From assembly GCA_903893815.1 (NCBI GenBank), contig CAITNS010000045.1:1-64000 (forward strand): DNA of 64,000 bases, read 5' to 3'. Made by a program: the position numbers and the translations under genes. Shown here in pieces: positions 1 to 43,219 of this stretch (positions are counted from its first letter, which is position 1; the number at the start of each line of letters is the position of its first letter). This stretch comes from an uncultured Bacteroidota bacterium. GTDB lineage: Bacteria > Bacteroidota > Bacteroidia > B-17B0 > Aurantibacillaceae. Under the pieces are notes generated by a model. The model saw nothing but the letters and a program-made list of their open reading frames with translations. It was not told the DNA's origin and searched no databases.

Positions 1-1520
1 AAGCGGCAAAGAAAGCAGAAGAAGCAAGATTGGCCGCAGAGAAAGCAGTAGCAGAGAAAGCAGCTCAAGAGAAGTTAGCACAAGAAAAAGCAGCAGCGGA
101 TAAAGCCGCTCAAGATAAAGCGGCTCAAGAAAAGTTAGCTCAGGAAAAATTAGCACAAGAAAAACTAGCACAAGAAAAAGCAGCACAAGAGAAAGCAGCA
201 GCTGAAAAATTAGCAAAAGAACAAGAAGCAGCAAAGAAAGCAGAAGAAGCAAGATTGGCAGCTGAAAAAGCAGCAGCAGAAAAGGCAGCTCAGGAAAAGT
301 TAGCTCAAGAAAAAGCAGCACAAGAAAAACTAGCACAAGAAAAAGCAGCAGCTGAAAAACTAGCAAAAGAACAAGAAGCGGCAAAGAAAGCAGAAGAAGC
401 AAGATTGGCCGCAGAGAAAGCAGCATCAGATAAAGCCGCTCAAGAAAAAGCTGCTCAAGAAAAACTAGCACAGGAAAAAGCCGCAGCAGAGAAGTCAGCT
501 CAAGAAAAAGCAGCACAAGAGAAAGCCGCTCAAGATAAACTTGCACAAGAAAATTTAGCACAAGAAAAAGCAGCAGCGGATAAAGCCGCTCAAGATAAAT
601 TTGCACAAGAAAAAGCAGCACAAGAGAAAGTAGCCGCAGACAAAGCAGCTCAAGAAAAGTTAGCACAAGAGAAAGCCGTTCAAGAAAAACTAGCTCAAGA
701 AAAACTAGCACAGGAAAAAGCCGCAGCAGAGAAAGCAGCAGCAGATAAAGCCGCTCAAGAGAAGTTAGCTCAAGAAAAAGCAGCTCAAGAAAAGTTAGCT
801 CAGGAAAAAGCAGCTCAAGAGAAAGTAGCCGCAGACAAAGCAGCTCAAGATAAAGTGGCTCAAGAAAAGTTAGCTCAGGAAAAAGCAGCAGCGGATAAAG
901 CCGCTCAAGATAAACTTGCACAAGAGAAAGCCGCTCAAGATAAACTTGCTCAGGAAAAAGCAGCAGCAGATAAAGTCGCTCAAGAAAAACTAGCACAAGA
1001 AAAAGCAGCAGCGGATAAAGCAGCTCAAGAAAAACTAGCACAAGAAAAACTAGCACAAGAAAAAGCAGCAGCGGATAAAGTAGCTCAAGAGAAAGCAGCT
1101 CAAGAAAAGTTAGCTCAGGAAAAAGCAGCTCAAGATAAACTTGCACAAGAAAAGTTAGCACAAGAAAAAGCAGCAGCGGATAAAGCCGCGCAAGATAAAG
1201 CAGCTCAAGAAAAGTTAGCTCAGGAAAAAGCAGCTCAAGAAAAACTTGCGCAAGAAAAAGCAGCTCAAGAAAAGTTAGCCCAAGAGGCATCAGCCAGAGC
1301 AGCAGCAGAAAAGGCTTCTCAAGAAAGGGCAGCCGCTCAGAAAAAAGCCTCCGAGAAAAAAGAGCAAGAAATGATTCTTAAAAATAAAATTGCGCAGGAA
1401 AAGAAGGCGGCAGAAAAAGCAGCGCAAGAAAAAGTAGAAGCCGAAAAAGCTGCTCAAGAAAAAATAGTAGCCGAAAAAGCAGCGGCCGACAAAATTGCTA
1501 ATGAAAAATTAGCAGCCGAA
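1..1520 (+). repeat. 15-bp-period coding repeat (pentapeptide units)
   Basis: The DNA consists of back-to-back 15-bp units such as aaagcagctcaagaa and aaattagcacaagaa, differing mainly at synonymous positions and at the Leu/Ala/Val and Gln/Ala choices. Longer higher-order copies also occur (for example the segment around 190-260 recurs near 350-420). Such tracts expand and contract by slippage and are prone to short-read assembly collapse. Confidence 0.85.
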
Positions 1521-1796
1521 AATTCGAAAAAGCAAACTGGAATTATTACGCCAATTAATACGGGAGCTGAAGCAGGAGATGGAAAAATTGGCTCGAAAGA
1601 CGCCAAGCACGCCGTTTTACAATCTATAGGTGGTGAAAATAAATACAGGGAAAATATTAAACGTGGTGATGAATTATTTAAGATGAAACGTTATGCTGAA
1701 GCAAAACCAGTTTATGAAGAAGCATTAAAAATTAAAGCTAACGATCCTTATGCAACTAATAAATTAGCTGAAATAGAAAAATTAATTAAAAAGTAA
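1..1796 (+). CDS. Alanine/lysine/glutamate pentapeptide-repeat rod protein with TPR-like C-terminus (5' end outside window)
   Basis: The frame is open to the left edge, so the N-terminus is missing; the first possible start (TTG at 30) lies inside the repeat and is not a real start. About 500 residues are built from five-residue units of the type [10 protein letters not shown] and KAAAD, with two copies of a longer [18 protein letters not shown] block. In these units Lys and Glu are four residues apart, which favours a stable single alpha-helix; five-residue spacing does not give a heptad coiled-coil stripe. The last 70 residues ([20 protein letters not shown]) form a TPR-like helix pair almost identical to the end of the next gene, so the two are tandem paralogues 8 bp apart. 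The helical rod resembles TolA domain II in composition only. Function unknown; a periplasmic or envelope location is inferred from the paralogue's signal peptide. Confidence 0.8.
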
Positions 1797-1804
1797 TTCT
1801 TTAG

Positions 1805-3223
1805 ATGAATAAAAAGTCGCTCGTTATATTTTTAAGTAGTTTATTCCTGCACACTATTTTAAATGCACAAGAATGGACACTTAAATTGAGAAGTTCTGTT
1901 GAATTACGTACCTTTAAATTGACAAATAAAGTTGATATCTCTGAGGAAAAATTAGCTGGAGCAACCATTACACTTTCTAAAGGTGCCATCACTATTACAC
2001 AAATACAAAGCGATGGAAGTGGTGATTTTGTAATTGATGTTCCGGCAAATGGAGATTATATTTTAACGATTTCTTATTCTGGATGTAATCCCAAAAAGTT
2101 TGCAATTTCAACTATGAATGTCCCCGAAGAATTAGCAAAAGATAATTATAAGCCAACATTTGGAATTGAAGGTGTTATTATGGCGAAAGCTTTTCCTTCT
2201 ATCAATTATTCTGTTTTACAGCAAGCTCTCGCAAGAATTGTTTATACGCCTAATGGTAAAAAATTTGATGATGAAGAAGGGTATACAAATCAAATGTTAG
2301 CAGAGCTTACTAAAATTAGAGAGGCTGAAAATGTCTTGATGAATAATTTTACTTCAACTAATAATACTGGAGATGTTGCATTGAGTAAAGGAGATTGTCC
2401 CTTAGCAAAGGCAAGTTATGAAAAAGCAATGACCATTATTCCAGGAGAACGTTATCCAAGCGACCAATTGCCAAAAGTAGGCGACTGCTTAAAGCAAAAA
2501 GAGTTAGCAGATAAAAAAGCAGCAGACGAAGCTAAATTAGCAGCTGAAAAATTAGCAGCTGAGAAATTAGCCAAAGAAAAAGCTGCACAAGAAAAATTAG
2601 AAGCAGATAAGTTAGCAAAAGATAAAGTCGCTCAAGAAGCATCAAATAAAGCTGCTCAAGCAGAGGCTGAGAAAGCTCAAAACGCTCAATTAGCTGCCGA
2701 AAAAGCTGAAACTGAGCGTTTAGCTAAAGATAAGATTGCTCAAGCAGCAGCCGCTAAAGCAACTAAAGCTGAGTCCGAAAAAGCACAAAAAGATAAATTG
2801 GCTAAAGAAAAACTAGAGGCCGATAAGATTGCAAAAGAAGCTTCCACTAAGGCAGCTAAAGAGGCAGCTGAGAAGGCAACTCAAAGTAAAGTCACCAAAA
2901 CTAAAGAAACCCCTAAAGAACCTGTAAAAGAAAAAACAACTACTCCAGCAAAGGAAACTACAAGAGAAATTGTTCCAAGTAGCACAAGTTCTTCTGAAAC
3001 TGGTTCCGCAGGAGTAGGGAGTGGTGATGCAAAATATAGTATCCCTCAAGCATTAGGCGCAGATAAATATAATGCAACCATTAAACGTGCCGATGAATTA
3101 TTTAAGATGAAACGTTACTCAGAGGCAAAACCAATGTACGAAGAAGCATTAAAACAAAAACCTAATGACCCCGCTGCAACTAATAAGTTGGCCGAGATAG
3201 AAAAGTTGACTATAAAGAAATAA
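1805..3223 (+). CDS. Secreted protein: regulatory-like beta domain, Ala/Lys/Glu helical rod, TPR-like C-terminus
   Basis: Residues 1-21 are a signal peptide (cleavage after LNAQ). Residues about 45-105 (AGATITLSKGAITITQIQSD) look like a carboxypeptidase-regulatory-like beta-sandwich. Residues about 185-220 resemble a degenerate TPR (CPLAKASYEKAMTIIPGE). Residues about 235-395 are an Ala/Lys/Glu-rich helical rod, shorter and less regular than in the upstream paralogue, and the last 70 residues repeat the upstream TPR-like module ([20 protein letters not shown]). It starts 8 bp after the upstream stop, so the two are probably co-transcribed. Its stop is 2 bp from the stop of the convergent DUF2461 gene. 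Likely an envelope structural or scaffold protein; function not known. Confidence 0.8.
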   Translation: MNKKSLVIFLSSLFLHTILNAQEWTLKLRSSVELRTFKLTNKVDISEEKLAGATITLSKGAITITQIQSDGSGDFVIDVPANGDYILTISYSGCNPKKFAISTMNVPEELAKDNYKPTFGIEGVIMAKAFPSINYSVLQQALARIVYTPNGKKFDDEEGYTNQMLAELTKIREAENVLMNNFTSTNNTGDVALSKGDCPLAKASYEKAMTIIPGERYPSDQLPKVGDCLKQKELADKKAADEAKLAAEKLAAEKLAKEKAAQEKLEADKLAKDKVAQEASNKAAQAEAEKAQNAQLAAEKAETERLAKDKIAQAAAAKATKAESEKAQKDKLAKEKLEADKIAKEASTKAAKEAAEKATQSKVTKTKETPKEPVKEKTTTPAKETTREIVPSSTSSSETGSAGVGSGDAKYSIPQALGADKYNATIKRADELFKMKRYSEAKPMYEEALKQKPNDPAATNKLAEIEKLTIKK

Positions 3224-5318: not shown

Positions 5319-6350
5319 ATGGCAAAGTCAAAACCTTCTATTCTTCTCATCTACACAGGCGGTACTATAGGTATGATGCAGGATGTTCGAACAGGCGAAT
5401 TAAAGCCCTTTAATTTTAAAGCACTCACCAAACAAATTCCTGAGCTAGAAAAATTCGATATTGAATTATCTTCTATTTCTTTTAAACATCCTATTGATTC
5501 TTCAAACATGCATCCACATGTGTGGATTGAATTAGCAACGATTATTAAAGACAATTATGCAAAGTATGATGGTTTTGTAATTTTACATGGTTCTGATACA
5601 ATGTCATATACTGCAAGTGCTTTGAGTTTTATGTTAGAGAATTTGGCTAAGCCCATTATTTTAACAGGTTCTCAGTTACCAATTGGAATAATTAGAACAG
5701 ATGGAAAAGAAAATTTAATTACTGCTATAGAAATTGCTGCTGCTCAAAAAAACAATAAACCTATAGTAACTGAAGTGTGTATTTATTTTGAATATAAATT
5801 ACATAGAGGAAATCGCACTTATAAATATAATTCAGCACATTTCGATGCCTTTAAATCCCCTAATTATCCTGCATTAGCAGAGGCTGGAGTTAACATACAA
5901 TACAATCAAACAGCTTTATTAAAACCTTCAAAAAAAGCATTGGCAGTTCATACCCAATTAGAGAATGATATTGCGGTATTGAAATTATTTCCCGGATTAA
6001 GTAGAAAAATCACCTTATCAATTTTAAATACAACAGGTATTAAAGCGGTGATAATGGAAACTTTTGGAGCTGGAAATGCAAGTACAGAAGAATGGTTTAT
6101 TCAAGCTTTAAAAACAGCCATTGATAAGGGTATTATTATTTATAATGTCACTCAATGCGCCGAAGGCAAAGTCATTCAAGGAATGTACGAAACAAGCAGT
6201 CAGTTGAAGAAAATAGGTGTAGTCAGTGGTTTTGATATTACGTTTGAAAGTGCTATTGCAAAATTAATGTACGTACTTGGTAAAAAAGTACCTACATCAA
6301 AAGCAAAACAATTATTAGAGACCAATTTAAGAGGAGAAATAACAATTTAA
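5319..6350 (+). CDS. ansA: Type I L-asparaginase
   Basis: Hydrolyses L-asparagine to aspartate and ammonia. The two active-site motifs are present: YTGGTIG at residues 12-18 (nucleophilic Thr) and HGSDTM at 90-95. There is no signal peptide, and the 343-residue length and ENLAKPIILTGSQLPIG segment fit the cytoplasmic type I enzyme (AnsA) rather than the periplasmic type II. Start ATG follows the terminator of the preceding gene by 5 bp. Confidence 0.92.
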   Translation: MAKSKPSILLIYTGGTIGMMQDVRTGELKPFNFKALTKQIPELEKFDIELSSISFKHPIDSSNMHPHVWIELATIIKDNYAKYDGFVILHGSDTMSYTASALSFMLENLAKPIILTGSQLPIGIIRTDGKENLITAIEIAAAQKNNKPIVTEVCIYFEYKLHRGNRTYKYNSAHFDAFKSPNYPALAEAGVNIQYNQTALLKPSKKALAVHTQLENDIAVLKLFPGLSRKITLSILNTTGIKAVIMETFGAGNASTEEWFIQALKTAIDKGIIIYNVTQCAEGKVIQGMYETSSQLKKIGVVSGFDITFESAIAKLMYVLGKKVPTSKAKQLLETNLRGEITI

Positions 6351-6362
6351 ATTTAACAACAC

Positions 6363-6408
6363 TACTCAGCGACCTCTGCGAAAAAACTTTGCGACCTTTG
6401 TGGTTAAA
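6363..6408. repeat. Interspersed CTCTGCGAAAAAACTTTGCG-type element
   Basis: The run gcgacctctgcgaaaaaac followed by tttgcgacctttgtggtt has no coding potential. A diverged reverse-complement relative occurs at 53944-53985. Both sit between genes. Confidence 0.55.
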
Positions 6409-6508
6409 TAATAGAAATATGAAATAGCCATGTGCCGAAACTCACAAACACCAATGAAGATATATGGCTTATACCATATCACAATAAAAAAACAATAAAT
6501 ATCTACAT

Positions 6509-6862
6509 ATGAAGAATCAAATCAACGTAGAAGGAATTAGATTATATTCATATCATGGTTGCTTACCCGAAGAAACTAAAATTGGTGGAGAGTACATTGT
6601 AGATGTTTATATGGTATATGATTTTAACGAAGCGGCAGTTAAAGATGATTTAAATTTAACTATTGATTACTGCACCGTGTTTGAAATTTGTAAAGCAGAG
6701 ATGGCTATTCCATCAAAATTAATTGAGCATGTAGGTAAACGAATTTATGATAAAATCATTCATGCGTTTCCAAAATTGATTGAAACGAAAGTAAAAGTGA
6801 CTAAACTATTACCGCCTATGAATGGGCCAGTAGATAAGGTTTCAATTATAATCGAAGATTAA
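6509..6862 (+). CDS. folB: Dihydroneopterin aldolase
   Basis: Folate biosynthesis: converts 7,8-dihydroneopterin to 6-hydroxymethyl-7,8-dihydropterin and glycolaldehyde. The 117-residue length and motifs fit FolB: IRLYSYHGCLPEE near the N-terminus, LNLTIDYCTVFE (usual TIDYxxV), and KVTKLLPPMNGPVDKVSI near the end. The catalytic Lys of family members is in the KxxPP region, here KLLPP. Monocistronic; flanked by interspersed repeats on both sides. Confidence 0.92.
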   Translation: MKNQINVEGIRLYSYHGCLPEETKIGGEYIVDVYMVYDFNEAAVKDDLNLTIDYCTVFEICKAEMAIPSKLIEHVGKRIYDKIIHAFPKLIETKVKVTKLLPPMNGPVDKVSIIIED

Positions 6863-6876
6863 TTTTTCTTTTTTAT

Positions 6877-6997
6877 AGAACGCAGATAACGCGGATTGGT
6901 TATGATTTAATAAGATTTTAATGAGTAAGATCATTTTTTAATACAATGATTTTTTAATCATATTAATCTTACAAAATCTGTGTCATCAGCGTTCCAT
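6877..6997. repeat. About 120-bp imperfect palindromic intergenic element
   Basis: The left arm begins gaacgcagataacgcggatt and the right arm, read on the other strand, begins gaacgctgatgacacagatt (16 of 20 matching). The arms continue AT-rich and close on a GATCATT/AATGAT core. It fills the space between the convergent folB and zinc-ribbon genes, so it could also end transcription, but it has no simple terminator U-tract. Confidence 0.65.
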
Positions 6998-7005
6998 TTT
7001 TTTGA

Positions 7006-7365
7006 TTACGCATCAATCTTCCTCTTTACTAATAAATAGTAATTTCCTTCAATAGGTAAGTAGCCAAATTCATAACAAAAGAAATAATTTTTACCTTCTT
7101 TGGTTGTCGTAATATTAGTGTGGTAATTAAAATTAAAACCTTTATCTATTAACTTCTGCTGAGATACTTTTGCAGTTTCTCCTGTCAAAAGCTCTGTCAT
7201 AATTCTTCTGTTTTTGCGTAAAATGTTTGTGATGTTGCGAACATAGTTTGTACTATCGCTATTTAATTTATTGTTGTGTGAATTGCGACATAAGTCGCTG
7301 CAAAATTTTTTGTCAACTCTTCCGTTAAAGGTTTCTCCGCATTCTAAACACAATTTCTTTTCCAT
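7006..7365 (-). CDS. Small N-terminal zinc-ribbon protein, function unknown
   Basis: Start chosen at the ATG at 7365 (MEKKLCLECGETF); the longer reading frame from 7401 would overlap nadE. The protein has four cysteines as CLEC and CSDLC (positions 5, 8, 21, 25), the treble-clef zinc-ribbon pattern of DUF2116-like proteins, then about 90 residues of helical and beta sequence ending YLLVKRKIDA. It starts 5 bp after the nadE stop, so it is very likely co-transcribed with nadE. No function is known to me; nucleic-acid or protein binding by the ribbon is a guess. Confidence 0.75.
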   Translation of the reverse strand: MEKKLCLECGETFNGRVDKKFCSDLCRNSHNNKLNSDSTNYVRNITNILRKNRRIMTELLTGETAKVSQQKLIDKGFNFNYHTNITTTKEGKNYFFCYEFGYLPIEGNYYLLVKRKIDA

Positions 7366-7370
7366 CGCTA

Positions 7371-8150
7371 TTATTTTAAAAAGTCTTTTGGTATTAAACA
7401 CACTGGTATAGGATCCATTTTATGTTTATTGGCTCTATTTCGGTTTTGGTAAATTTGCATTGCTACTGTTTGTCTTTCGTTTAATTCGTAGCTTTCTTTG
7501 TTTTCAATATACAACATTGCCCATTCTAATTCATCGTATGTAGCTCCAATTTGATCTTCGTCTGTTCTTCCATCTGCAAAAAGTCCATCGGTTGGCCGCG
7601 CATTTAAAATAGAATTAACCACACCCACTTTTGCAGCTAAAGCATACACTTCCGATTTCATTAAATCCGCAATAGGACTCACATCTACACCGCCATCTCC
7701 ATACTTTGTGTAAAAGCCAATCCCAAAATCTTCTACTTTATTTCCTGTGCCTGCCACTAATAATTTATGGTGACCAGCATATGCGTATAATGTTGTCATT
7801 CTTAACCTAGCTCTTGTATTTGCCAACGTTAAAAAATCTTGAATGTTTTTATCGTAGGTTTTTTCCATTTCTTCAAAAATGGAAGTTAAGTTTACTTCAG
7901 CACTGCTAACATTGGAGTATGTTTTTTTTAACCCTTCAATATGTTCGTTTCCTCTATCGTATTCTGTTTTATGCTGACGGATGGGCATATTTAAGCAAAT
8001 TACTTTTTTACCTGTCAAAGCGCATAAGGTAGATGTTAAAGCAGAGTCAATTCCACCTGAGATACCAATCACAAAGCCCTCAGTTTTTGAAGAGTCAGAA
8101 TATGTTTTTAGCCAATTAACAATATGTTGAATGATGTCGTTATGTTTCAT
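7371..8150 (-). CDS. nadE: NAD+ synthase, ammonia-dependent
   Basis: Makes NAD+ from deamido-NAD+, ATP and ammonia. The PP-loop motif SGGIDS is at residues 31-36 and the family segments AGTGNKVEDFGIGFYTKYGDG and DLMKSEVYALA follow. At 259 residues there is no glutaminase domain. I chose ATG 8150 (MKHNDIIQHI), because the 22 extra residues from 8216 would run through the terminator hairpin at 8173-8208 and have no family counterpart. Near gldB, as in flavobacteria where nadE and gldB are often neighbours. Confidence 0.93.
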   Translation of the reverse strand: MKHNDIIQHIVNWLKTYSDSSKTEGFVIGISGGIDSALTSTLCALTGKKVICLNMPIRQHKTEYDRGNEHIEGLKKTYSNVSSAEVNLTSIFEEMEKTYDKNIQDFLTLANTRARLRMTTLYAYAGHHKLLVAGTGNKVEDFGIGFYTKYGDGGVDVSPIADLMKSEVYALAAKVGVVNSILNARPTDGLFADGRTDEDQIGATYDELEWAMLYIENKESYELNERQTVAMQIYQNRNRANKHKMDPIPVCLIPKDFLK

Positions 8151-8172
8151 ATATAAGGTAAATATAAAAATA

Positions 8173-8208
8173 AAAAATCCCATCCGCCAACTGACGAATG
8201 GGATTTTT
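8173..8208 (-). terminator. Terminator of the outer-membrane barrel gene
   Basis: Stem aaaaatcccat / atgggattttt around a 14-nt loop, with A/T tracts on both sides so that it can act in both directions. It lies 21 bp beyond the stop of the gene ending at 8230. Confidence 0.8.
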
Positions 8209-8229
8209 GATAACAAATTTTAGAAAAAA

Positions 8230-9096
8230 CTAGAATAAAATTCCAACGTTAATTCTAATAGCATTCATTAATAAATTTTGTTTTACAAAAGAAAAGGTTA
8301 CGGTTCCGTCAGAATAAGATTTATAGTCGTATGCCATATATTTTGATTCTTTTTTCATTAAGTTAGTAAATGAACGGAAGTAATTAATACTTAAGAAGGC
8401 AGAAGTGGACCCAGATAAACGGTATTCTGCACCTAAACCAACATTCATACCAACTCTTAATGGAATTAAAGAACCGTCTTTGTTAATATTGATATTTGTG
8501 TTTGTTCCAGTCCCATTATTTACATTAGATCCAAAAGTTGTGCTGCTAGTATATTTATCAGTAGCTCTTGCTTTAATTCGAACACCAATTTCTCCACCAA
8601 ATACACCAAAATATTTAAAACCACCAATTTCCTTAGTCATCATTTTTAGAGCTAATGGAATCGTAACATGAGTAGTTTTGATTTTTCTTTCTATAATACC
8701 ATTATACCTAACATCTCCTGCCTGAACAATATTTGACTCTTGCATCCCATCTTTTATTTCGTTCAATTCATTTGATCCATTTAATGTATATCCAATAGCA
8801 TATGGTGTAACTGCTAAAGGCTCATATTTGTATTTAATGCCACCGTTTTCAAAATCGCCACCAATACCAGTTACAAAGTAAGCTGTTTTTGATAGTCTAA
8901 ATTCCATCGCTAAGCCAAATCCAAATCCAAAACCTGTACTTGATCTTGTAGTGTTATTGTCTTTAGATGAAAACCATGTAGGTTGAGCCGCTACTTTTAA
9001 ACCTAATCTAAATTTTTTATCGTCATCACTTTCTTGCGCAAGAAACGAATTAGCTAACAATAATGTGCTAGAAACTAAAAGTAAAATCTTTTTCAT
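8230..9096 (-). CDS. Outer-membrane beta-barrel protein (PorT/OmpW-like)
   Basis: Signal peptide at residues 1-20 (LANSFLAQ). The mature protein alternates short amphipathic strands with polar loops (RLGLKVAAQPTWFSS, GFGFGFGLAMEFRL, YFVTGIGGDFENGG, FKYFGVFGGEIGVRIKARA) and ends RINVGILF, the C-terminal aromatic typical of outer-membrane barrels. A Gly/Asn/Thr-rich loop lies at about residues 180-200. This is the general Bacteroidota OMP_b-brl family; substrate or partner unknown. Monocistronic with its own terminator, and divergent from gldB. Confidence 0.8.
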   Translation of the reverse strand: MKKILLLVSSTLLLANSFLAQESDDDKKFRLGLKVAAQPTWFSSKDNNTTRSSTGFGFGFGLAMEFRLSKTAYFVTGIGGDFENGGIKYKYEPLAVTPYAIGYTLNGSNELNEIKDGMQESNIVQAGDVRYNGIIERKIKTTHVTIPLALKMMTKEIGGFKYFGVFGGEIGVRIKARATDKYTSSTTFGSNVNNGTGTNTNININKDGSLIPLRVGMNVGLGAEYRLSGSTSAFLSINYFRSFTNLMKKESKYMAYDYKSYSDGTVTFSFVKQNLLMNAIRINVGILF

Positions 9097-23435: not shown

Positions 23436-24277
23436 TGTTATTTAAAAGCACATATAATGAATTATTAAAAATTGCCTTTAAGCCAAGGAGTTATATTGGT
23501 ATTGCTGGCATTATTTTAATTATTTCTATTATATTATTTGCAATGAAGGTTGATGGGAGCTTTTATATTTCATTGATTACTGGGCAATTTGATCAATCTT
23601 TATTATTTGAAGGAGAAATTTTAAACGGTAATTTGATTGCCTATATAATTATCCAAATGCTCATTATACACGTGCCATTACTTATTGCATTTGTGACTGG
23701 TGATTTAGTATCGGGTGAATCTGCAATGGGAACCATACGGTTATTATTAACAAAGCCTGTTTCAAGAAGTACCATATTATGGTCGAAATTTTTTGCTAGT
23801 TGTATTTACACGTTAATTGTGATGTTATGTTTGGCATTTATGTCATTTGTTTTAGGTAAACTAATATTTGGACAAGGTGATTTAATGGTTTTAAAGTCTG
23901 ACGGATTAATTGTATTTCAAGAAGGAGATATTACTTGGCGGTTTTTTTACGGATTTGCTATTGCCTTTTTATCATTAGTAACTGTTGCAACATTAGCTTT
24001 AACATTATCCTGTTTTTCAGAAAACTCAATAGGGCCTATTGTTGCTACGATGGGTATTATTTTATTATTTACTATAATTGGCTCGATGGACGTCCCGGTT
24101 TTTGATGTTATCCGACCATTTTTGTTTACCACGCACATGGCAGCTTGGCGTTATTTTTTTGATGACCCTTTGAATACAACCAATATTTTTTATTCAATTA
24201 CTATTTTAGTCGCACATATTGGTGTTTTACTTGCCATTGCATTTTATAAATTTAATAAAAAAGATATTTTATCGTAA
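23435..24277 (+). CDS. ABC-2 type permease
   Basis: Six hydrophobic segments (IGIAGIILIISIILF, GNLIAYIIIQMLIIHVPLLIAF, FFASCIYTLIVMLCLAFMSF and others) with the ABC-2 motif DLVSGESAMGTIRLLLTKPV in the first cytoplasmic loop, as in NosY-like permeases. It overlaps the ATPase gene by one base upstream and the next gene by one base downstream. It works with the ATPase as an exporter half; substrate unknown. Confidence 0.88.
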   Translation: MLFKSTYNELLKIAFKPRSYIGIAGIILIISIILFAMKVDGSFYISLITGQFDQSLLFEGEILNGNLIAYIIIQMLIIHVPLLIAFVTGDLVSGESAMGTIRLLLTKPVSRSTILWSKFFASCIYTLIVMLCLAFMSFVLGKLIFGQGDLMVLKSDGLIVFQEGDITWRFFYGFAIAFLSLVTVATLALTLSCFSENSIGPIVATMGIILLFTIIGSMDVPVFDVIRPFLFTTHMAAWRYFFDDPLNTTNIFYSITILVAHIGVLLAIAFYKFNKKDILS

Positions 24278-24969
24278 TGATTCATATTAAAGTAATATTT
24301 ATTTTATTAGTATTGTTTTTATCTAATACTAACGTCATTGCTCAAAATCCACGTGCTATGCTAAATCAAGTTCAGATTAAAATTAATAAGGCAAATAATT
24401 ATAAAGCAGATATTAATATAAAGGTTGATTTACCATATATAACGATGATGCCTATTGACACGAAGTTGTACTTTAAGCAAAAGGATAAATTTAAGATTGA
24501 CACGAAGAGTATTGCTATTTTGCCTAAGCAAGGTTTTTTGCAATTAAATATGCTGGTAAATGATACCGTAAATTATACTGCTATTTTTCAGAGTAAAGAA
24601 ACTATTAACCGAATAAAAACAAGTTTAATTAATTTAATTCCTAATAATGATACAAGTGATGTTGTATTGGCGAAATTGTGGGTTGATGCAACTAATTTAG
24701 TTATTGTAAAGTCACAGGTAACAACTAAATCAAGTGGAACAGTAAAAACAGAATATACTTATGGAGCGCAATTAGCTTTTGGGTTACCAGACTGCATTAA
24801 ATTTATTGTAGATATTAAAAAATTTAAAATACCTAAAGCACTTGCCGCAGATATTAATACGTCTAAAAGTAAAAAAGTAGAAAAAGATAAGGGAGAAATT
24901 ACCGTTGTATTGAAAAATTACGAAATCAACAAAGGCATCGCTGATAGCTTTTTCGAAAAAGTTAAGTAA
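24277..24969 (+). CDS. Periplasmic LolA-like protein of the ABC operon
   Basis: Signal peptide at residues 1-22 (LVLFLSNTNVIAQ). The mature 208 residues are beta-rich (YKADINIKVDLPYITMMPID, YFKQKDKFKIDTKSIAILP) and resemble the LolA/LolB or outer-membrane lipoprotein-sorting fold; the match is by general pattern, not a diagnostic motif. The one-base overlap with the permease suggests a periplasmic partner of that exporter. Its stop is 1 bp from the stop of the convergent DUF2071 gene. Confidence 0.6.
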   Translation: MIHIKVIFILLVLFLSNTNVIAQNPRAMLNQVQIKINKANNYKADINIKVDLPYITMMPIDTKLYFKQKDKFKIDTKSIAILPKQGFLQLNMLVNDTVNYTAIFQSKETINRIKTSLINLIPNNDTSDVVLAKLWVDATNLVIVKSQVTTKSSGTVKTEYTYGAQLAFGLPDCIKFIVDIKKFKIPKALAADINTSKSKKVEKDKGEITVVLKNYEINKGIADSFFEKVK

Positions 24970-42317: not shown

Positions 42318-43121
42318 TTATTTTTTAGCACCAAATACTTTTTTTAAAAGGTCTGTTACTTGTGCCATTGGATCTTTTCTGATTTTTGCTTCCTCGTCTT
42401 TAATTAAAGTCATTAAACCATTAATTGCTTTATTACAAACATAATCATCTAAATTTGGATTTTGTTTTTTAACACCAGGTAATTTGTTATAAGCAGTCGC
42501 TAAAGGTTTCCAATAACTAGCAACTTTAGCTTTAGTCACAGCTTCTTTAATGGTTGGCATAAACTTCTCTTTCAAAGGAGCATATGTTTTTTCTCTTAAG
42601 TAATGAGTTGCAGCAGTATCGCCACCGTTTAAAATAGCAAATCCATCTCCAATACTCATTCCTGTAATTGCATCTTTAAACACAGGAACCGATTTTTTGG
42701 CCGCTTCTTCAGCCGCTCTATTTAATGAAGTCTCAAATTCTGTTACTTTTTTCTGCATTCCCATTTTAATTAATTTGGCACGCATATCCTTCGCTTCTTC
42801 AGGCCAAGGAATAAATATGGCTGGATTTTTAAGGAAACCATCAGCTTTTGAAGCTAAACCTGAAGAGTTGTTGGTTCCAACATTTAAAGCTTCTTTTAAA
42901 CCATTAATCACTTCATCATTTGTTAAAGCTGGAGCCTTTGGAGTGCCCGTAACAATAGCGGTTGCTTTATCAATAACAACTGCTGAGTTTGTTTTAGCAG
43001 CATCAATAATCGTTGTTGAATTTGTAATAGCAGCATCTTTTATAATATTACCCCAGTTTTGAGCTTCAGAAGTTAAACTTACAGTAACTAGTGCTATTAT
43101 TAATAAGAATTTATTTTTCAT
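42318..43121 (-). CDS. DUF4197 secreted protein
   Basis: Signal peptide 1-20 (TVSLTSEAQNW). The mature protein matches DUF4197: LTNDEVINGLKEALNVGTNN, PAIFIPWPEEAKDMRAKLIK, GMSIGDGFAILNGGDTAATH and YLREKTYAPLKEKFMPTIKE. The N-terminal part (residues 25-60) has a loose repeat of AAITNSTTIIDAAKTNSAVV. Helical, periplasmic, role unknown. Confidence 0.88.
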   Translation of the reverse strand: MKNKFLLIIALVTVSLTSEAQNWGNIIKDAAITNSTTIIDAAKTNSAVVIDKATAIVTGTPKAPALTNDEVINGLKEALNVGTNNSSGLASKADGFLKNPAIFIPWPEEAKDMRAKLIKMGMQKKVTEFETSLNRAAEEAAKKSVPVFKDAITGMSIGDGFAILNGGDTAATHYLREKTYAPLKEKFMPTIKEAVTKAKVASYWKPLATAYNKLPGVKKQNPNLDDYVCNKAINGLMTLIKDEEAKIRKDPMAQVTDLLKKVFGAKK

Positions 43122-43219
43122 AATGGATATTTTTTAATAAGTATTTACATTTTTAAAAGAGAACTATCTCTTAATATTTAAATTTACAATGGTTTTACAA
43201 ATATATTGCCAAATATACT

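Follow-up and report, generated by a model that had tools for sequence, protein, structure and literature searches.

Bacteroidota proteins with conserved ends and a variable spacer: five-residue-repeat rods and TPR arrays at one gene position

In the family of Bacteroidota proteins described here, the ends are conserved, and it is apparently the spacer between them that is exchanged and lengthened in evolution. Two members are encoded by tandem genes, called A and B (Table 1), at the beginning of the window, that is, the first 64 kb of contig C45 (CAITNS010000045.1) from an uncultured bacterium of the Aurantibacillaceae (assembly GCA_903893815.1; 3.69 Mb in 86 contigs). An initial annotation of this DNA had taken both genes for paralogues carrying helical rods that act as spacers of different lengths. 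They are indeed tandem paralogues, and the helical-spacer idea is partly supported: across the family, rods of 67-959 residues stand between conserved ends. Two more paralogues lie in the same genome: type C (locus L012), which has a rod and is extended by a further C-terminal domain, and type D (L013), which is short and lacks a long rod.

The interpretation that we favour, and to which we give about an even chance, is that of an exported two-headed spacer protein in which a single Ala/Lys/Glu helix stands between the heads. As judged from the sequences, the first head comprises an N-terminal carboxypeptidase-regulatory-like domain (CRD) and one TPR hairpin, after a signal peptide that mostly lacks a lipobox; the second is the TPR hairpin that follows the rod, continued in type C by a 70-residue domain called WGG here; and the Ala/Lys/Glu segment between the heads lacks a coiled-coil seam. 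This segment may be a single α-helix that grew by slippage from the helix linking two TPR units, and it would hold the two heads at a set distance in the cell envelope. Selection would keep its length and stiffness rather than the identity of its residues, and paralogues and species would differ in spacer length or swap in a TPR array. The spacer view is supported by conserved ends around a variable middle across 45 rods and by the occurrence of different spacers at the same locus.

Spacer exchange at the type C locus

The type C gene stands back to back with a FAD-oxidoreductase-like gene. This name, like phospholipase D, SSB, asparaginase, PorP/SprF and DUF2461 below, is a label read from the sequences by eye, with no family search. 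The count of spacers covers the genes with a WGG domain in the fetched loci that were kept; genes truncated before this domain are not listed. Loci L001-L010, L014-L032, L070-L114 and L135-L144 were dropped from this count and from those of lag and composition, gaps, phase and signals; many of them duplicate other loci, but some, for instance L079, L097 and L099, do not.

Inside the taxonomic family, 20 of 21 WGG genes (excluding type D and the second L120 copy) have the FAD-oxidoreductase-like neighbour, and the 21st (L049) begins at a contig edge. The rod is at least 170 residues long at 16 of these 20 loci. The exceptions are L046, with a frameshifted rod; L055, with an 88-residue linker that is not rod-like; L193, which combines four TPR units and a 107-residue rod; and L120, in which 15 TPR units are present and no rod. 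Outside the family, the neighbour accompanies 11 of the 44 listed WGG genes. Five of these (L146, L147, L157, L160 and L166) have 12-24 TPR units and no rod, four from one genus (L145, L183, L184 and L188) have 9-13 units plus short rods, and two (L161 and L165) are rod-rich mosaics. The CRD and the C-terminal domain were found in 30 of the 31 neighbour-bearing genes, the CRD of L046 being hidden by the frameshift. The remaining 33 outside genes, some of them end-truncated, have no such neighbour in the fetched stretch, and both rods and arrays occur among them.

Assembly artefact, which the initial annotation had named as a possible objection, is ruled out as the source of long rods by a 959-residue rod in a single-contig genome and an 893-residue rod in a genome of two contigs. 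Within the genus, 11 of the 31 genes of types A, B and C are interrupted by a contig end that falls in the rod or at its edge (hand count), so that rod lengths from short-read assemblies are lower bounds. The same applies to the 506 residues visible of rod A, since position 1 of the window is a contig end. Two rods show changes of frame: L037 (6787-8736) has one inside the rod and an out-of-character tail at its end, and in L046 (3166-5923) the rod is read as two overlapping frames. These can be either assembly errors in repeats or real length-changing mutations.

Chemistry and periodicity of the rods

Rod A is mainly composed of Ala (35%), Lys (20%), Glu (16%) and Gln (13%). Its [ED]K pairs are spaced by five residues in 79 of 85 cases, the longest unbroken run is of 48 pentads, and TRF reports arrays of period 15/45/60 bp inside 38-1285. 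The charges are strongly ordered: K→E(i+4) pairs number 95 against 21.0±3.8 in 500 shuffles, E→K(i+4) pairs 6 against 21.2±3.6, and like-charge i+4 pairs 2 against 42.5. According to a report on designed helices, K→E(+4) has been found to be the more stabilising order (PMC5347031). The hydrophobic power of the rod is 27.5 for period 5 as against 0.07 for period 3.5, one pentad position holds 37 of the 48 large hydrophobic residues, and Leu, Val, Ile, Met and Phe have no favoured phase modulo 7 (heptad) or modulo 11 (hendecad) in this rod. The strict pentads with K→E(i+4) and without heptads, as initially described, are therefore confirmed for rod A. The description extends to rod B only in part, since 9 pentad units were found in its 149 residues (K→E(i+4) 20 versus 7.2±2.0 in shuffles).

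The codons of rod A differ, at a lag of 5, at 62% of synonymous and 27% of non-synonymous sites, versus 58-62% and 59-67%, respectively, at lags 3, 4, 6, 7, 8 and 11. This indicates that the repeats have diverged in DNA and have been held in protein. A first dN/dS estimate of 0.16 was set aside because its units had been picked by their residues and it was thus biased; the unselected lag test was used instead.

In the family as a whole, a composition filter retained 60 rods, a set that does not include rod A of the window. Of these, 45 lie in frames uncut by the locus end and give the range of 67-959 residues; two of the 45 (L037 and L046) look frameshifted. K→E(i+4) pairs exceed E→K(i+4) pairs in all 60, most narrowly in L156 (116 versus 115). 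The median net charge per residue is 0.013, Ala represents 22-56% of the residues, and Pro plus Gly account for 32 of 20,949, a figure that is partly a product of the filter. The strongest period is 4.9-5.1 in 31 rods, near 2.0 in 12 and of other values in the rest. Heptad power (3.45-3.7 residues) does not exceed half of that of the top period in 58 of the 60, and for these a coiled coil is rejected by the missing signal; the other two are L123, L126 or similar weakly periodic rods. Pfam matches of gene A to Histone H1-like HC2 (62.7 bits, cut-off 40) and to extensin were judged to reflect rod composition.

Helical phase of the linkers between TPR units

Linker lengths were measured in 27 proteins with at least four TPR units, in which 307 gaps of 10-100 residues separate units of 39 residues. 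Gaps of 21, 32, 28, 25, 18 and 24 residues are the most frequent. When angles of 30-180 degrees per residue were scanned, the best fit was at 100.0 degrees (R 0.76), the value of an α-helix, and the best outside 80-120 degrees gave R 0.43. When each distinct length is entered once per protein, R is 0.60 (n=96), whereas 10,000 random shifts by no more than 2 residues averaged 0.17 and never exceeded 0.44. Since the proteins are related, and L150 and L164 share identical gap lists, Rayleigh values are not independent probabilities. Distinct gap lengths without their frequency give a mean cosine of 0.15 versus 0.03±0.15, and the phase signal therefore lies in how often each length occurs.

The linkers shorter than 40 residues are also rich in A/K/E/D/Q/R/L (fraction 0.81, versus 0.58 in TPR units and 0.42±0.07 in other open reading frames). 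Given the best fit at 100.0 degrees, the shorter linkers are very probably continuous helices whose length changes by whole α-helical turns. The natural reading of the rod is that of an inter-TPR linker grown long.

Folded ends and export

The CRD of gene B is modelled as the same fold as CarboxypepD_reg (PF13620), despite a score of 29.5 bits that is below the cut-off of 32.3. Types C and D are also below it (29.7 and 16.9 bits), and a copy on contig C25 of the same genome is above (37.4 bits). Among solved structures, the CRD is nearest to transthyretin- and Cna-B-like folds and more weakly matches the N-terminal domains of SusC-type transporters. By sequence, the best match of the N-terminal profile in the PDB is RagA (E 4.4e-4), and SusC homologues also match.

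The signal peptide and regulatory-like domain initially assigned to gene B are present but not exclusive to it, because the start of gene A very probably lies on C25. There, 385 codons encode a signal peptide, a CRD, a pre-rod TPR and the start of a similar rod, and then run off the contig. The exact end overlap between C25 and C45 is only 11 bases, so that the join rests on gene position: a phospholipase-D-like gene adjoins this start on C25, as it adjoins gene A in the relative L042. The same gene adjoins gene B in the relatives L034 and L040, and the latter also has genes that lie downstream of B in the window. C25 (L011) bears, in addition, at 5544-8919 tyrosine integrase-like and serine-recombinase-like genes (by eye).

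A hydrophobic stretch of export type is found in 101 of the 102 family proteins with their own N-terminus. An A/S-Q site is present in 99 of these N-termini and a lipobox-like pattern in 4, none of them in the window. From these signals, the family protein is very probably exported, mostly without a lipid anchor.

TPR_14 matches gene B above its cut-off (25.1 bits versus 23.5) and TPR_1 just below (26 versus 27.8), and one TPR unit stands before the rod as well as one after. In the AlphaFold model of B, the CRD and the pre-rod TPR have pLDDT values that mostly exceed 90, and the last TPR reaches about 90; the closing helix of the pre-rod TPR continues into the rod as residues 216-280, with pLDDT of at least 77 to about residue 270. 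The similar TPR-like ends had been proposed as a specific tip for a common binding partner, and this part of the initial annotation is not supported. The same kind of unit also precedes the rod, it is one copy of the kind that forms arrays of 12-24 units in relatives, and it is missing from B-like proteins that retain the rod in two species of one genus (L115 and L117, from genomes of 1 and 2 contigs); the proteins can therefore do without the TPR tip. Of more interest than the tip is the behaviour of the spacer in relatives, in its exchange and in its helical phase.

The WGG domain (VVVKE..AYVYQKK.F.WGG..YFRD...IT; L012 6622-6834, L013 3880-4107) stands, in most of the loci read, at the far end of the CRD/spacer proteins. 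Its model in type C has five strands and one helix, with pLDDT of about 80. Neither of the two bearers scanned (L012 and L013) gave a Pfam or NCBIfam match to this domain, and its profile found no match in the PDB (best E 0.13). Its occurrence extends to 136 of the 295 genomes that were sampled from the class.

Interpretation and alternatives

Several observations weigh against a two-headed protein with a single-helix spacer. The periplasm is much narrower than 75 nm; a helix of 500-960 residues (75-144 nm) exceeds it, and a simple membrane-to-membrane spacer does not fit. AlphaFold is confident for only about the first 40 residues of rod B, and pLDDT falls below 50 in residues 283-286, 288-295 and 343-419 of B and 245-299 of the type C model. 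The 19 gaps of more than 150 residues have no helical phase (R 0.18), in a test weakened by the uncertainty of the twist. The 11 gaps of 53-97 residues all lie within 73 degrees of the common phase and fit best at 98.5 degrees (R 0.82), but they also reach R 0.68 at 67.5 degrees; the angle is only loosely determined by so few. In type D paralogues, rod-like residues number about 50 at most. With respect to partners, gldL occurs in 277 of 295 class genomes, and a link to the type IX secretion system through this near-universal gene was dropped, as it neither discriminates nor gives a firm partner; a PorP/SprF-like gene, a type IX component by its label, is present in only 4 of 19 type C loci. 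The latter gene lies at 2603-3565 in L012 and is also seen in L048, L050 and L051 and in the outside locus L152.

A more specific form of the spacer hypothesis can be put forward tentatively, as somewhat improbable: the distance between the heads could be tuned by two interchangeable devices at one position, a TPR solenoid or a seam-free single helix. The connecting helices of the solenoid would change mostly by whole turns, and the rod would have grown from one of them, up to 959 residues. The pentad repeat would be a way to an Ala-rich helix without a sticky face, and a rod of more than 100 nm, too long to stand upright in the periplasm, would need to run along the envelope or project from the cell. 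If this is true, one gene position shows the passage from a repeat solenoid to a single-helix rod with both ends unchanged, and the helix phase is a sequence-only read-out of that change. These proteins would provide very long natural helices, which may be monomeric and which follow an unusual rule of five residues, and selection on the length rather than the sequence of an envelope-protein spacer would become testable.

It seems unlikely that the rod is unselected low-complexity filler, driven by slippage and tolerated because it is soluble and helical, with only the end domains at work. The wide range of rod lengths, the differences in repeat units among close relatives, the near absence of a rod in type D proteins and the lack of a conserved helical phase in long rods are all in line with filler. 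However, the charge order is kept in every filtered rod and the heptad seam is missing in nearly all, at the repeat lag of rod A non-synonymous sites are constrained in comparison with synonymous ones, helical turns are conserved in the short linkers, and the tandem pairs outside the genus regularly combine one long and one short protein (see below).

An alanine-driven helical bundle or alacoil, in which rods would pair (A with B) and form a filament or oligomer instead of a lone helix, is less probable still. Ala is certainly abundant in the rods, and designed Ala-rich helices with seven-residue repeats oligomerise instead of staying single, as stated in PMC5347031. The low hydrophobic power at 3.45-3.7 residues in 58 of the 60 filtered rods and the absence of heptad or hendecad phase in rod A speak against such packing, and so do five-residue steps, which spread Ala around the helix; this step may avoid an Ala face.

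A TolA-like force transducer linking an inner-membrane motor to the outer membrane is very improbable: in many γ-proteobacteria a helical spacer is formed by domain II of TolA, PMC12204202 implicates a CRD-like domain of Bacteroides TonB-dependent transporters in TonB contact, and RagA and SusC homologues are among the PDB relatives of the CRD, but tolA_full (NCBIfam TIGR02794) scores 11.2 bits on B of the window versus a cut-off of 59.45 and is not among the matches at E≤1 for the other three paralogues, and a signal peptide and CRD take the place of the anchor helix and motor motif of TolA. Inspection by eye of the listed families of shared neighbours revealed no tol-pal-like gene; those of type B look like DUF2461, SSB, asparaginase and others, none being TolQ-, TolR-, TolB- or Pal-like.

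Distribution, tandem pairs and gene layout

Of the 87 genomes of the taxonomic family, 85 have a match to the N-terminal profile, including all 62 with at least 90% completeness and at most 5% contamination; a search at the order level returned the same 87 genomes. Uncultured Bacteroidetes, Bacteroidota or Bacteroidia account for 29 of the 31 titled loci. Family members L098 and L100 come from records titled Candidatus Saccharibacteria and Chitinophaga pinensis, and these contigs are probably mis-binned or mislabelled. Genus g8 (G071-G078; for instance L119, L120 and L127) has the most N-terminal-profile matches per genome, up to 26, a count that includes TPR-only matches; it contains a TPR-array form of type C as well as tandem pairs with the short gene first. 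Literature searches turned up no recognised work on such Bacteroidota proteins, which is not proof of absence.

All seven complete adjacent tandem pairs outside the genus consist of one long (688-864 amino acids) and one short (335-432) protein; the two L120 copies are not adjacent and were excluded. Within the genus, the two species with A (long, split across contigs) have a short B of 472 and 444 amino acids, and the four species without an A match and with a complete, unshifted B have one of 655-863. A rule of one long rod per locus is contradicted by the lone 427-residue protein of L041 (genome 82% complete), and lone mid-sized proteins (L074, L115, L117, L122 and L126) also break it. The tandem-pair pattern rests on few independent events.

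The features of genes A and B are collected in Table 1. Elsewhere in the window, short AT-rich tandem repeats with 17-bp and 18-bp units lie at 43095-43160 and 24265-24312; no tRNA was found by ARAGORN and no Rfam match at the gathering score.

Table 1. Features of the tandem genes at the beginning of the window
Feature	Position	Strand	Remarks
Gene A, 3' part	3..1796	+	597 codons read; 5' end open, truncated by contig end
Rod A, Ala/Lys/Glu/Gln pentad repeats ([15 protein letters not shown])	3..1520	+	506 residues visible
Gene A post-rod TPR unit	1635..1793	+	
Gene B	1805..3223	+	complete, 472 aa
Gene B signal peptide	1805..1867	+	hydrophobic stretch then AQ site; no lipobox
Gene B CRD (transthyretin/Cna-B-like β sandwich) and conserved 'PGI[DN]YS'-type β linker	1874..2275	+	
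Gene B pre-rod helical region	2276..2449	+	one TPR hairpin (helices 158-194, 198-211)
Rod B	2492..2938	+	149 residues, Ala/Lys/Glu-rich, pentad only in part
Gene B post-rod TPR unit	3062..3211	+	helices 421-434, 438-451, 456-469

Comparison with known systems

In chemistry, the rods resemble single alpha-helix (SAH) domains, which (PMC5347031) are charge-rich, neutral, rich in K→E(i+4), free of a seam and placed between two folded domains. Rod A shares with them an excess of opposite-charge i,i+4 pairs, few like-charge pairs and no coiled-coil seam. Unlike SAH domains, compared here by sequence only, the rods consist of Ala-rich pentads instead of E/K/R-rich blocks. In TolA, too, a helical spacer rich in Ala, Lys and Glu separates the N-terminal part from a globular domain at the C-terminus, but the rods of this family reach 959 residues.

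PorE (PG1058), a lipoprotein of the type IX secretion system, has a β-propeller and an OmpA-like peptidoglycan domain. Neither of these domains appears in the Pfam matches of the present proteins, and those of the window lack a lipobox. The likeness lies in the TPR and carboxypeptidase-regulatory-like parts in the Bacteroidota envelope, which are described for PorE (PMC12204202). Finally, the TPR units of the family match designed consensus TPR solenoids (CTPR proteins) in the PDB, but here the units are joined by an extra segment, mostly of 18-32 and up to about 100 residues.

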